Positions 14,223 to 23,601 of a stretch of DNA of 54,655 bases are shown piece by piece. This DNA is from Candidatus Microgenomates bacterium (GTDB lineage Bacteria; Patescibacteriota; Microgenomatia; UBA1406; GWC2-37-13), in contig JAHFKS010000003.1 of NCBI GenBank assembly GCA_023245215.1, positions 1 through 54,655 of the forward strand, written 5' to 3'. A model generated the notes under the pieces. The model saw nothing but the letters and a program-made list of their open reading frames with translations, had not been told where the DNA came from and ran no database searches. The stretch's first letter is position 1; every line of letters starts with the position of its first letter. A program made the position numbers and the translations under genes.

Positions 14223-14306
14223 GGGCGAGTGGCGGAACTGGCAGACGCGCAAGGTTTAGGACCTTGTGTCCGCAAGGACGTGGGGGTTCAACTCCTCTCT
14301 CGCCCA
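14223..14306 (+). tRNA. tRNA-Leu(TAG)
   Basis: GGGCGAGTGGCGGAACTGGCAGACGCGCAAGGTTTAGGACCTTGTGTCCGCAAGGACGTGGGGGTTCAACTCCTCTCTCGCCCA; long variable arm. Confidence 0.95.
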
Positions 14307-14313
14307 CATTTTT

Positions 14314-16930: not shown

Positions 16931-18556
16931 ATGGTATTTAAGAAAATACTTCTTATATTTTTTTTCTTATTTATTTTCCCAGTTTCTTCTTTTGCCAAAG
17001 ACAAGCCGCAGGTAGTTTTTATCAACCAGGTCAGGGGAGAGGAGTGCTGTTCAAAAGGAACTCTTGATAATCTTAAAAAACAAATCGATGCTTTTGTCCA
17101 AAATAAGATTCCGGCATATTTCGCCATCAGGTACGATGCCTTAACGGATGACAACTATGCTGGATTCTTAAAACAACAGGCAGCTGAAAATCCTGACCTG
17201 ATCAAGCTCGCCTTGATGATCGAAATCACGCCCCGATTAGCCAAAGACTCCGGCGTTATTTATAACGATACCGAGGAAAGATGGTTTGAGGCGCAAAATT
17301 CTTTTACCATCGGTTATCAGATTGACGACAGAAAAAAAATCATCGATAAATTGTTTTCTGCATTTAAAAAAGACTTTGGCTTTTATCCCGGTTTAACATC
17401 CGCCTGGATGGTCGACACTAATTCTTTAAACTACATGCATGATAAATACAAGGTTCTAGCCCATCAGATAACGCGTGAACAGTGGGGGCAGGATACTTAT
17501 ACACTTTATGGAGGCCCGCCCCATTATCCTTACCCAGCTTCAAGAAACTGGGTTTTCATTCCTGACTTTGACCAGAAAGACCCGGTTTTAATGTTAAGGC
17601 AGACTGTAACCGATCCTTTATACAACTACGGTGAAACAAAAAAAGCTTACACGTCACAAACCAATGACTATCTCAACGCCGGGCTGGATTTCGAATATTT
17701 TAAAAAGTTGGCCAATCAAGCCTTGTTTGAACAGAAAACCACCGGTTTTGCTTTGCTTGGTTTGGAAAACGCCAATGACGAAAAATACCAGGATGAATTT
17801 TTGAAACAAATTGAATATGTCAACCAATTGAAAGATAAAATAATTTTTCCTGATCTGCAGCAGCTGGCCGGATATTGGCCGAAGCAAAAAAATACTTCTT
17901 ATTCAGGCAGGGACCTTTTCAACAACACAGACAACCGGGCAGAATTCATTACTGGCCCCGGCAGCCGGCAGAGGATAAGAATTTATAAAGGCAAAACTTT
18001 TATAACCGACTACCGTTATTATGACAAAAATCTGACCGACCCTTACAACGGCTATGTCGCCAAAAAATACGGCTACTGGATAGCCCCTTATGCAATAGAC
18101 TATTCCCACGTTTATAAACCCGGCTCTATTTTCGCGGATACCCAAAGCGATCTTGTTATTGAAAAGCTATTGGATAATAAAATCAAAAAACTCGACGCAG
18201 AAAAATTCAACAAAAACAGACTGGACGACTACCCTTATTTTATGCCCGAGCCGGTCGACCGCAACATCGACCGTATAAGAAGCAGGGTAGAGATAAACTA
18301 CGGAAAGACAATCGAAATTAAGTTTTCCGCCAAAGACCGATTGGGTTATCCCGTAAGCATCAACAAGCCTTTGACAATCAAAACCGATCCAAAAATTGAA
18401 GACATCGTCAGCCAGACTGATTCTGCCGAACATTTTTTCTATCTGCTTAATAATAAAGAAATTATACTCGTAATCACTCTTACTTCAGACAAAAAAACGG
18501 TTAAGCAGATCTTTCTTTTTCCGAAGCTTTTTCCTTTTGTCAAACTGTCATTTTGA
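16931..18556 (+). CDS. Secreted hypothetical protein with possible polysaccharide-deacetylase-like fold
   Basis: Signal peptide MVFKKILLIFFFLFIFPVSSFAK; (beta/alpha) barrel-like pattern; fold call tentative. Confidence 0.65.
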   Translation: MVFKKILLIFFFLFIFPVSSFAKDKPQVVFINQVRGEECCSKGTLDNLKKQIDAFVQNKIPAYFAIRYDALTDDNYAGFLKQQAAENPDLIKLALMIEITPRLAKDSGVIYNDTEERWFEAQNSFTIGYQIDDRKKIIDKLFSAFKKDFGFYPGLTSAWMVDTNSLNYMHDKYKVLAHQITREQWGQDTYTLYGGPPHYPYPASRNWVFIPDFDQKDPVLMLRQTVTDPLYNYGETKKAYTSQTNDYLNAGLDFEYFKKLANQALFEQKTTGFALLGLENANDEKYQDEFLKQIEYVNQLKDKIIFPDLQQLAGYWPKQKNTSYSGRDLFNNTDNRAEFITGPGSRQRIRIYKGKTFITDYRYYDKNLTDPYNGYVAKKYGYWIAPYAIDYSHVYKPGSIFADTQSDLVIEKLLDNKIKKLDAEKFNKNRLDDYPYFMPEPVDRNIDRIRSRVEINYGKTIEIKFSAKDRLGYPVSINKPLTIKTDPKIEDIVSQTDSAEHFFYLLNNKEIILVITLTSDKKTVKQIFLFPKLFPFVKLSF

Positions 18557-18615
18557 TCTAAATGACTCTTACATGATTTTCAGCTGATATTCAGCTTTTG
18601 ATCTATAATTAATTT

Positions 18616-19131
18616 ATGGTAAACATAATCAAGAAATTATTAGTTTCGCTTTTTATAATCGTTGCTTTCGTTATTTATACAAGCTTTAAAAACGAAAACC
18701 AGCAGGAAATCGCCGTTTTACCTCCGCCAAAAAATAATCAGATAATTCCAGCCGTTCCAACTACTACATCAACACGCGAACCAGTAACTTCAGCTCCGGT
18801 TTCGGCATCTACCCCGACTCCGGCGCCGACAAAACCCGTCAACAACGGCCAATATAAAGACGGCAGTTATACCGGGCCTGCAGCTGATGCTTTTTACGGA
18901 AATATCCAGGTCCAGGCAGTCATTTCCGGCGGTAAAATCACCGCAGTCAACTTCCTCCAGTACCCAAATGACAGAGAAACATCAATAATGATAAACACCC
19001 AGGCCATGCCGTATTTGCAGCAGGAGGCAATCCAGGCCCAATCCGGCAATGTCAATATTGTATCGGGCGCCACCGACACCAGCCGCGCTTTTATAGAATC
19101 TTTAAATTCTGCTTTAACCCAGGCCAAATAA
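18616..19131 (+). CDS. Membrane-anchored FMN-binding (FMN_bind) domain protein, predicted covalently flavinylated
   Basis: N-terminal TM, Pro/Thr-rich linker, GQYKDGSYTG...VSGATDTSRAFIESLNSAL; SGAT flavinylation motif. Confidence 0.9.
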   Translation: MVNIIKKLLVSLFIIVAFVIYTSFKNENQQEIAVLPPPKNNQIIPAVPTTTSTREPVTSAPVSASTPTPAPTKPVNNGQYKDGSYTGPAADAFYGNIQVQAVISGGKITAVNFLQYPNDRETSIMINTQAMPYLQQEAIQAQSGNVNIVSGATDTSRAFIESLNSALTQAK

Positions 19132-19132
19132 A

Positions 19133-19891
19133 ATGAAACAGACTCGTCTTATAATGGGGATGCCCGTAACCGTTGAAATAGTTGACAAAAACGTCCATCC
19201 TGACTCAATCGAAAAAGTTTTTGACTACTTTCAATATGTCGACGGTAAATTCAGCACTTATAAAAACACCAGCGAAATAACAAAAATCAACCTTGGAGAA
19301 ATCAAGAAGAAAGACTGGAGTCCTGACATGAAAAAAATTTTTAAACTAAGCGCTGAGACCAAAAAACAAACTAATGGTTATTTTAATATAGAACAAGCCG
19401 GCTTTTTTGACCCGTCGGGCATCGTCAAAGGCTGGGCGATTTTAAACGCGGCTGAACTTTTAAAAAAGATGGGCTACAAAAATTATTATGTCGAAGCCGG
19501 AGGAGACATCCAGGTCTCAGGAAAAAACAATAAAAACCAATACTGGCGGATTGGCATCAGAAACCCTTTCAACCGGTACCAAAATGTAAAAATAGTCAGT
19601 TTAAAAAACCGGGGCATCGCCACTTCAGGAACTTATATCCGCGGGCAGCACGTATACAACCCTTACCTTCCTAAACAATCAATAACCGATGTCGTCAGTC
19701 TGACCATCATCGGCCCGAATGTCTACGAAGCTGACCGCTACGCCACAGCCGCTTTTGCCATGGGAAAAAACGGAATTGCGTTTATCGGGAAAATAAAAGG
19801 CTTGGAAGGATATATGATTGATAATAAGGGACAGGCTACTTTTACGGGCGGTTTTAATAATTACGTTGTCCATAAAAATGAAAATAATTGA
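19133..19891 (+). CDS. apbE: ApbE-like FAD:protein FMN transferase
   Basis: MGMPVTVEI, DPSGIVKGWA, VEAGGDIQVSG, GIATSGTY, TDVVSLTIIGPN. Confidence 0.92.
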   Translation: MKQTRLIMGMPVTVEIVDKNVHPDSIEKVFDYFQYVDGKFSTYKNTSEITKINLGEIKKKDWSPDMKKIFKLSAETKKQTNGYFNIEQAGFFDPSGIVKGWAILNAAELLKKMGYKNYYVEAGGDIQVSGKNNKNQYWRIGIRNPFNRYQNVKIVSLKNRGIATSGTYIRGQHVYNPYLPKQSITDVVSLTIIGPNVYEADRYATAAFAMGKNGIAFIGKIKGLEGYMIDNKGQATFTGGFNNYVVHKNENN

Positions 19892-21398
19892 CGACTTTTT
19901 AAATCAGATCACCATGTACCGCCTCGTTCTTTATTATCTGATCGGCCTCGTTATCGTAGCAGTAATTTACAGCGCTTTTAACCTCCTGCCTTATGACCCG
20001 ATAAATATTATTTACTCTTCGTTATTTTTGGTTATATTCAGCGACTTCGTCAACGATTTATTGGCTAAGATTTTTGACGCGCCGACCAATATCGAATCAG
20101 TATATATAACCGCCCTAATCCTTGTGCTGATTATCAACCCGGTCAAGATTGTCGCCGACTTTTTATTTTTAGCCTGGGCAGCTGTTTTATCGATGGCTTC
20201 TAAATATATTTTTACGATTAACAAAAAACACGTTTTCAACCCGGCGGCTATCGCCGTTGTTCTGACGGCTTTTTTTCTTAAGCAATCTGCCAGCTGGTGG
20301 GTAAGCAATCTATCTCTTCTTCCTTATGTCATTATCGGAGGACTGTTGATAATCCGGAAAACCCAGAGAGAGAAAGTAATTTTGACTTTTATTTCCGCGG
20401 CAGTTTTGACGCTAATCGCGTTTAATTTATTAAAAGGTCCTTTTTCTTTCCCCAGCATTTTATCAAGAATGTTTTTCCATTCATCGCTTTTTTTCTTTGC
20501 CTTTGCCATGCTGACCGAGCCTTTAACCATGCCCAACACTTTGAACCTGCAGATGATTTTTGCCGCAATCGTCGGATTTTTGTTTGTCCCTAACGTTCAT
20601 GTCTTTAGCATTTATTCAACGCCGGAGCTGGCGCTAGTTGCTGGAAATATTTTTGCTTATTTCGTCAACCCAAAGCAAAAATTGGTCATCCGCCTCAAAG
20701 AAAAAATAAAACTGACAGCGGACACTTATGATTTTATTTTTCCTTTGGAGAAAAAACTGGATTTTACACCCGGACAGTATATGGAATGGACCCTTGCTCA
20801 TGAAAAAGCCGACGTCCGCGGTAACCGACGTTATTTCACCATCGCCTCATCGCCGACAGAGAACGAACTTCGAATCGGTATAAAATTCTACGAACCTGGA
20901 AGCAGCTATAAAAAAACCATGCTGGCAATGGATGAAAAAATACCAATCGTCGCCTCACAGATAACCGGCGATTTCACCTTGCCGAAAGATAAAAACAAGA
21001 AGCTTGTTTTTGTCGCCGGAGGGATAGGAGTAACTCCATTCAGAAGCATTATTAAATATTTAATTGACACGAACGAACTCCGCGACATAATAATTTTATA
21101 TTCAAACAGATATAAGTCAGAAATTGTTTATCAGGATATTTTTGCCGAAGCGCAGATAAAATTGGGAGTAAAAACCATCTATACCTTAACCGATATCACC
21201 CAAGTGCCTGCTGAATGGATGGGGGAAAAAGGAAGAATCAATGAGGAAATGATAAAAAAAGAAGTTCCTGATTTTAAAGAAAGGATTTATTATCTGTCCG
21301 GACCCCACAATATGGTTGTCGGATTCGAGAAGGCTTTAAAAAATTCCGGAATAAGCAAAAAAAATATAAAGATTGATTTTTTTCCCGGCTTCGTCTAA
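19878..21398 (+). CDS. NqrB/RnfD-like membrane domain fused to ferredoxin-NAD(P)+ reductase domain
   Basis: Multi-TM N-half with KYIFTINKKHVFNPAA and SASWWV; C-half with RRYFTIASSP, FVAGGIGVTPFRSI, YYLSGPHNMV. Confidence 0.87.
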   Translation: MKIIDDFLNQITMYRLVLYYLIGLVIVAVIYSAFNLLPYDPINIIYSSLFLVIFSDFVNDLLAKIFDAPTNIESVYITALILVLIINPVKIVADFLFLAWAAVLSMASKYIFTINKKHVFNPAAIAVVLTAFFLKQSASWWVSNLSLLPYVIIGGLLIIRKTQREKVILTFISAAVLTLIAFNLLKGPFSFPSILSRMFFHSSLFFFAFAMLTEPLTMPNTLNLQMIFAAIVGFLFVPNVHVFSIYSTPELALVAGNIFAYFVNPKQKLVIRLKEKIKLTADTYDFIFPLEKKLDFTPGQYMEWTLAHEKADVRGNRRYFTIASSPTENELRIGIKFYEPGSSYKKTMLAMDEKIPIVASQITGDFTLPKDKNKKLVFVAGGIGVTPFRSIIKYLIDTNELRDIIILYSNRYKSEIVYQDIFAEAQIKLGVKTIYTLTDITQVPAEWMGEKGRINEEMIKKEVPDFKERIYYLSGPHNMVVGFEKALKNSGISKKNIKIDFFPGFV

Positions 21399-22953: not shown

Positions 22954-23601
22954 ATGAATAACAAAAATATACTGATTGGCGCAGTTTCAGTTGTCGGCAC
23001 CTTTATCCTTCTGTTTATCGTCTATTCCCTGGTCAACACTCCCCAAAAAACCGACTTTCCCGAAATCAATCAAGTGAGAAGCAGCGACCATACTTCCTGG
23101 TCAAAAGATAACAAAAACCTACTAGTAGAATACAGTGACATCCAGTGCCCGGCCTGCAAAAGCTTCCACGACCTTTTCCGGACTTTTGAAGCTTCATCCA
23201 GCCCTGACTTTAAAATCACCCAAAAAACTACTTTGGTTTTCCGTCACTTCCCGCTATTTCAGATTCATCAGAATTCGCTGGTTGCCGCTTATGCAGCTGA
23301 AGCAGCTTCTCTCCAAGGCAAGTTCTGGGAAATGACTAATGCTTTATATGACAAGCAGGTCCAATGGTCAACTCTTGGAAACCCAAGGGATTTTTTCACC
23401 GGCGTCGCCAAAGAATTAAAGCTCGATACGGATAAGTTCAAAAAAGATATGGATTCTCAGGCTGTCAAAAACCGCGTCCAAGCCAACTTAACCGAAGGTA
23501 ACAATATTGGCGTCAACTCAACTCCAACTTTTTTCCTCAATGGAAAAAAGGTTGATGTCAATTCTATCAATGATTTTAAAAAATTGCTCAACTCCCAATG
23601 A
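22954..23601 (+). CDS. DsbA-family thioredoxin-fold protein, membrane anchored
   Basis: N-terminal TM, YSDIQCPACKSFHD (CPAC), NNIGVNSTPTFFLNGKKV. Confidence 0.92.
   Translation: MNNKNILIGAVSVVGTFILLFIVYSLVNTPQKTDFPEINQVRSSDHTSWSKDNKNLLVEYSDIQCPACKSFHDLFRTFEASSSPDFKITQKTTLVFRHFPLFQIHQNSLVAAYAAEAASLQGKFWEMTNALYDKQVQWSTLGNPRDFFTGVAKELKLDTDKFKKDMDSQAVKNRVQANLTEGNNIGVNSTPTFFLNGKKVDVNSINDFKKLLNSQ

Follow-up and report, generated by a model that had tools for sequence, protein, structure and literature searches.

The window, a stretch of 54,655 nucleotides, is contig C24 of a Microgenomates genome of 0.82 Mb that is about 91% complete; the genomes of its phylum mates are small (mostly 0.5–2 Mb). 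It carries three adjacent genes, all on the + strand, whose open reading frames and Pfam matches bear out the FMN_bind, ApbE and NqrB/RnfD-FNR fusion set proposed in an earlier note on this DNA. The first gene (18616..19131) encodes a 171-aa protein made of an N-terminal transmembrane anchor, a Pro/Thr-rich linker and an FMN_bind domain (aa 94–167; PF04205, 38.7 bits for a cutoff of 22). Its nearest solved relative by sequence is 8p2a; PDB matches of the FMN_bind profile to designed armadillo proteins were discarded as artefacts, no stretch passing by itself. The codons at 19063..19074 read SGAT, a flavinylation motif in which Thr153 is the predicted FMN attachment site, so the anchored protein does carry the motif ascribed to it. 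The second gene (19133..19891) encodes a 252-aa ApbE, an FAD:protein FMN transferase (PF02424, 137.8 bits for a cutoff of 25.6), the core of which is conserved, including GGD, H173, D201 and T205, and the profile of which matches solved ApbEs at E 5e-32. A genome-wide search places the sole FMN_bind and the sole ApbE of this genome within the cluster. The third gene (19878..21398) encodes a 506-aa fusion protein in which profiles, fold and alignment identify an NqrB/RnfD-like membrane domain followed by an FNR-type NAD(P)H reductase. Its likely start is the ATG at 19878, conserved in an alignment of 18 homologues, the listed TTG at 19818 being too early; the overlap with ApbE is therefore exactly the 14 bp reported earlier.

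A TATAAT sequence read as a candidate -10 box (18604..18609, + strand) ends 6 nt before the ATG of the FMN_bind gene, a position that suggests a leaderless or nearly leaderless transcript. Between it and the gene directly upstream (16931-18556) lies an inverted repeat with a T run (18582-18603); that gene encodes a 541-aa, probably secreted protein without any Pfam match. It also adjoins the three genes in L038, the nearest relative, but with a frame that is interrupted close to its 3' end. Farther upstream, a tRNA-Leu (14223-14307) overlaps the mechanical GTG start (14266) of an inositol-monophosphatase ORF, the true start of which must therefore lie downstream.

The membrane half of the fusion (aa 1–264, 19878..20669) is predicted to form about ten transmembrane helices with an RnfD/NqrB fold. 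PF03116 (NQR2_RnfD_RnfE) scores 25.2 bits on the window protein, just below the cutoff of 27.7, and is matched by all 18 homologues at E ≤ 0.01 (best E 2e-11), 12 of which also match TIGR01946 rnfD at E ≤ 0.1. A profile of this half searched against PDB sequences has RnfD (8ahx_D) as its sole match. An AlphaFold model of the whole fusion (pLDDT 86.2) retrieves NqrF-type reductases with Foldseek; as this search is swamped by the reductase half, the membrane half was modelled separately (pLDDT 89.5, pTM 0.87) and then retrieves RnfD/NqrB chains only (prob 1.00, TM 0.57–0.71). The cytosolic half (20670..21395) has a clear NAD_binding_1 domain (PF00175, 57.3 bits for a cutoff of 22) and a FAD_binding_6 score of 19.1 bits, below the cutoff of 21.1; its fold resembles those of NqrF and flavohaemoglobin reductases. 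It carries an FAD motif, RRYFT.AS (aa 317–324), and an NAD(P) motif, GGIG.TP (aa 381–387), of which R317/R318, G381, G382, G384, T386 and P387 are nearly invariant across fusions. As the earlier note remarked, the NqrB-like half of the window protein contains no [ST]GA[TS] motif, and just three of the 77 homologues have a match. The same genome also encodes a 237-aa stand-alone NqrB/RnfD-like protein (L120:8466-9179, - strand, contig C34; PF03116, 30.3 bits) without reductase domain, and similar proteins are present in 14 other sampled genomes.

The earlier note set two refuting conditions, neither of which holds: the fusion does match NqrB/RnfD, by profile and by fold, and the gene order is conserved, FMN_bind-ApbE-fusion recurring in 41 of the 77 fusion loci; 19 others have one partner or a variant order, and 17 have neither FMN_bind nor ApbE. 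Within the order, the full fusion is found in 6 of 83 genomes, one of them with two copies. An even sample of the phylum gives 62 of 380 Patescibacteria (about 16%), a hand count of strong, mostly full-length matches; 76 genomes matched in all, and the 14 excluded had only weaker, stand-alone NqrB-like proteins. Related records that bear an organism name come mostly from CPR bacteria (Gottesmanbacteria, Microgenomates, Levyibacteriota, Staskawiczbacteria and Doudnabacteria). One family of Chloroflexi has six strong copies in 100 genomes, which form a single clade nested among CPR sequences on the tree, a topology compatible with transfer.

Clusters known as NQR/RNF-like have been defined by an NqrB/RnfD-like-PF00175 fusion lying beside flavinylation genes; Actinobacteria and CPR account for most of the 127 reported (Meheust et al. 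2021, PMC8238504). The three genes of the window fit this definition and therefore belong to that system, a device that is known but almost unstudied. They share with it the two subunits (an extracytosolic FMN_bind protein and the fusion itself), an ApbE in the cluster, the lack of a covalent-flavin Thr in the membrane half and the occurrence in CPR and Actinobacteria. The same architecture has been modelled with AlphaFold-multimer, the flavinylation Thr being absent from the membrane half there too (Huang et al. 2024, PMC11334425). Relative to the passages of these two papers that deal with the system, what is added here is the frequency of the fusion in Patescibacteria and its presence in a Chloroflexi family, an ApbE devoid of secretion signal, and the persistence of the fusion beside a cupredoxin where FMN_bind and ApbE are missing. 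MsrQ-like and PepSY-like flavinylation systems also use a membrane protein with an NAD-binding domain that feeds external flavinylated proteins, but their membrane domains bind haem whereas that of the window has the NqrB/RnfD fold.

Taken together, the three genes very probably make up a minimal NQR/RNF-like wire that takes electrons across the membrane, from NAD(P)H to an external covalent FMN and on to an external acceptor. Its operation can be pictured as follows. NAD(P)H would donate a hydride to the FAD of the cytosolic FNR half; the NqrB/RnfD-like half would then carry the electrons across the membrane by way of a non-covalently bound flavin and hand them to the FMN esterified by ApbE to Thr153 of the anchored protein outside the cell, from which they would finally pass to an extracellular acceptor encoded outside the cluster. 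Homology supports the wire model well; electron flow, its direction and the flavin of the membrane half are inferred. The chain, already sketched in the earlier note, agrees with the unidirectional transfer from NAD(P)H to external FMN proposed for NQR/RNF-like clusters in the published model (PMC8238504; PMC11334425). No acceptor gene is conserved beside the FMN-type clusters. CPR bacteria are mostly regarded as fermenters that lack respiratory chains. A dedicated outlet for NAD(P)H electrons in about one-sixth of the sampled genomes therefore bears on their lifestyle.

The earlier note overlooked that ApbE has no export signal. By hydropathy reading of N-termini, on which all signal and anchor calls are based, the window ApbE begins seven residues before its core, has no hydrophobic segment and shows neither a secretion nor a lipoprotein signal, a point absent from the published passages on the system. 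In the window, as in the 13 relatives looked at first, the ApbE start lies at the catalytic core; in the wider set, 44 of the 46 scorable ApbEs found beside fusions begin at most nine residues from the core motif, and in two open frames a hydrophobic stretch precedes this start. The other readable ApbE N-termini of the order (L054, L056, L058) are likewise devoid of signal. Such signal-less enzymes in fusion loci fit the remark that extracytosolic flavinylation genes, when filtered by signal peptides, appear underrepresented in CPR (PMC8238504). A review names signal-less ApbEs that act on cytosolic targets; that of Klebsiella pneumoniae, which also has no signal peptide, modifies a cytosolic fumarate reductase (PMC12052999), whereas the substrate in the window is membrane-anchored and predicted to be external. 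A signal-less ApbE together with an external substrate conflicts with the usual scheme in which ApbE works in the periplasm. It appears that the flavin is attached by a cytosolic ApbE before or during export of the substrate. If so, cofactor attachment would precede Sec export, unlike in the accepted periplasmic scheme, and the cell would be spared exporting FAD.

The 17 loci with neither partner include one (L150) that ends at a contig end; the other 16 were kept. FMN_bind and ApbE have no match anywhere in these 16 genomes, 14 of which are at least 90% complete. In eight of the 16 (L032, L034, L155, L160, L169, L173, L178 and L179), the fusion is accompanied by the gene of a cupredoxin that begins with a hydrophobic segment, at distances of 1, 3, 34, 130, 151, 226, 237 and 1302 bp (seven of the eight thus within 240 bp). 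The same cupredoxin profiles have no match in the stretch examined at the other 60 loci, where FMN_bind and/or ApbE is present (8/16 versus 0/60; Fisher p 7e-7 with loci treated as independent). These genomes encode about two cupredoxins each, so chance adjacency to the fusion would be about 0.3% per locus. The subgroup is post hoc, spotted during inspection of the loci, and both the genome-wide absence test and the cupredoxin baseline were made afterwards. One type of cupredoxin has type-1-like copper ligands (C-x4-H-x4-M); the other, Cys-less and His-rich, may bind copper yet not serve as an electron carrier in the classical sense. Mapping the cupredoxin on the fusion tree forces at least four changes, the presumed swap having arisen several times. 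Comparison of FMN-type with FMN-less fusions singled out P238 and position 505 alone as differing, too few residues to infer an interface.

We infer that the external carrier slot is exchangeable, being filled by covalent FMN in the window and by a cupredoxin in some relatives. A broader proposal is advanced tentatively, as one that may well not hold: the fusion would be a general-purpose outward wire of Patescibacteria with a modular carrier, mostly a flavinylated FMN_bind protein and, repeatedly in lineages without FMN_bind and ApbE, a membrane-anchored cupredoxin, ApbE acting in the cytosol and the flavin being added before or during export. The main text of the two papers on the system (PMC8238504; PMC11334425) does not mention cupredoxins, and a search of the available literature found no paper linking them to it. 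Swaps of flavin for cytochrome have already been described (PMC8238504); one of flavin for copper, if true, would add a third class of carrier. Elsewhere in the window genome (L185, contig C28), a copper-type cluster encodes a P-type ATPase, a cupredoxin and an HMA-DsbD_2-cupredoxin fusion protein.

Two other readings concern the wire itself. That the fusion is left over from an ion pump of the full Nqr/Rnf type is very improbable, even though its membrane half is homologous to NqrB/RnfD. Na+-NQR (NqrB, NqrC, NqrF) and RNF (RnfD, RnfG) do share with the window system the membrane fold, an FMN_bind subunit and an NqrF-type reductase domain, but the NqrD/E or RnfA/E partners (PF02508) have no match over the cutoff in the window genome or in 21 other fusion genomes, and the compact FMN_bind-ApbE-fusion order is kept across many families. 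At the roughly 91% completeness of this genome, the fusion therefore stands alone rather than being a piece of Nqr/Rnf, and a complete complex was rejected. With a single unidirectional path, ion pumping would not be expected, unlike in Na+-NQR/RNF. The other reading places the FMN_bind domain in the cytosol, where it would share the compartment of ApbE and the chain would stay inside the cell. It would account for the lack of a signal sequence in nearly all fusion-adjacent ApbEs with a judgeable start; it is nonetheless improbable, since 33 FMN_bind homologues have an MKK-[hydrophobic]-type anchor with a mean net charge of +2.2 before the transmembrane segment and +0.6 after it, which together with the Pro/Thr/Ser-rich linker indicates an N-in, C-out topology. 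NqrC/RnfG and the modelled NQR/RNF-like partner (PMC11334425) are extracytosolic. An SGAT, SGAS or TGAT motif is present in 53 of the 56 FMN_bind homologues located beside fusions.

The remaining alternatives bear on what an outward wire would serve. The strongest rival on the role, though not on the wire itself, is metal reduction, the same chain acting as a ferric or cupric reductase with Fe(III) or Cu(II) as acceptor, for metal assimilation or homeostasis. A VIT1 iron transporter occurs in six published NQR/RNF-like clusters (PMC8238504), and cupredoxins adjoin FMN-less fusions; CsoR-type metal-sensing repressors lie near two FMN-less fusions without an adjacent cupredoxin (L157, 8823-9113; L158, 5773-6042), while genes identified by eye as copper-type P-ATPase-like are found near four fusions and FTR1 iron permease-like ones upstream in L027 and L028. 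The window cluster, however, adjoins no metal transporter and these neighbours mostly belong to FMN-less relatives, leaving metal reduction a possible but doubtful role. That the wire supplies extracytosolic proteins with thiol or methionine-sulfoxide reducing power, via the DsbA-like protein encoded at 22954, seems unlikely. A DsbA-like gene does lie within 4 kb of five of the 77 fusions, and in L166 it is 18 bp from the fusion and followed by a VKOR-like gene; but DsbA with VKOR forms an oxidising pathway, the association is rare, and in the window an opposite-strand gene stands between the cluster and the DsbA-like gene. Of the two neighbours cited in the earlier note, this gene and that of a flavodoxin (13753), both are real; adjacency of the flavodoxin to the fusion is not conserved in relatives, and it was rejected as a partner, as was the DsbA-like protein as acceptor given its rarity. 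Other neighbours, named by eye, include two-component systems at about 11 loci, MFS pumps at eight and HlyD/MacB-type exporters at up to six; they gave no acceptor and suggest a shared regulation or stress context. Loci with such neighbours include L042, L033, L159, L142 and L039.
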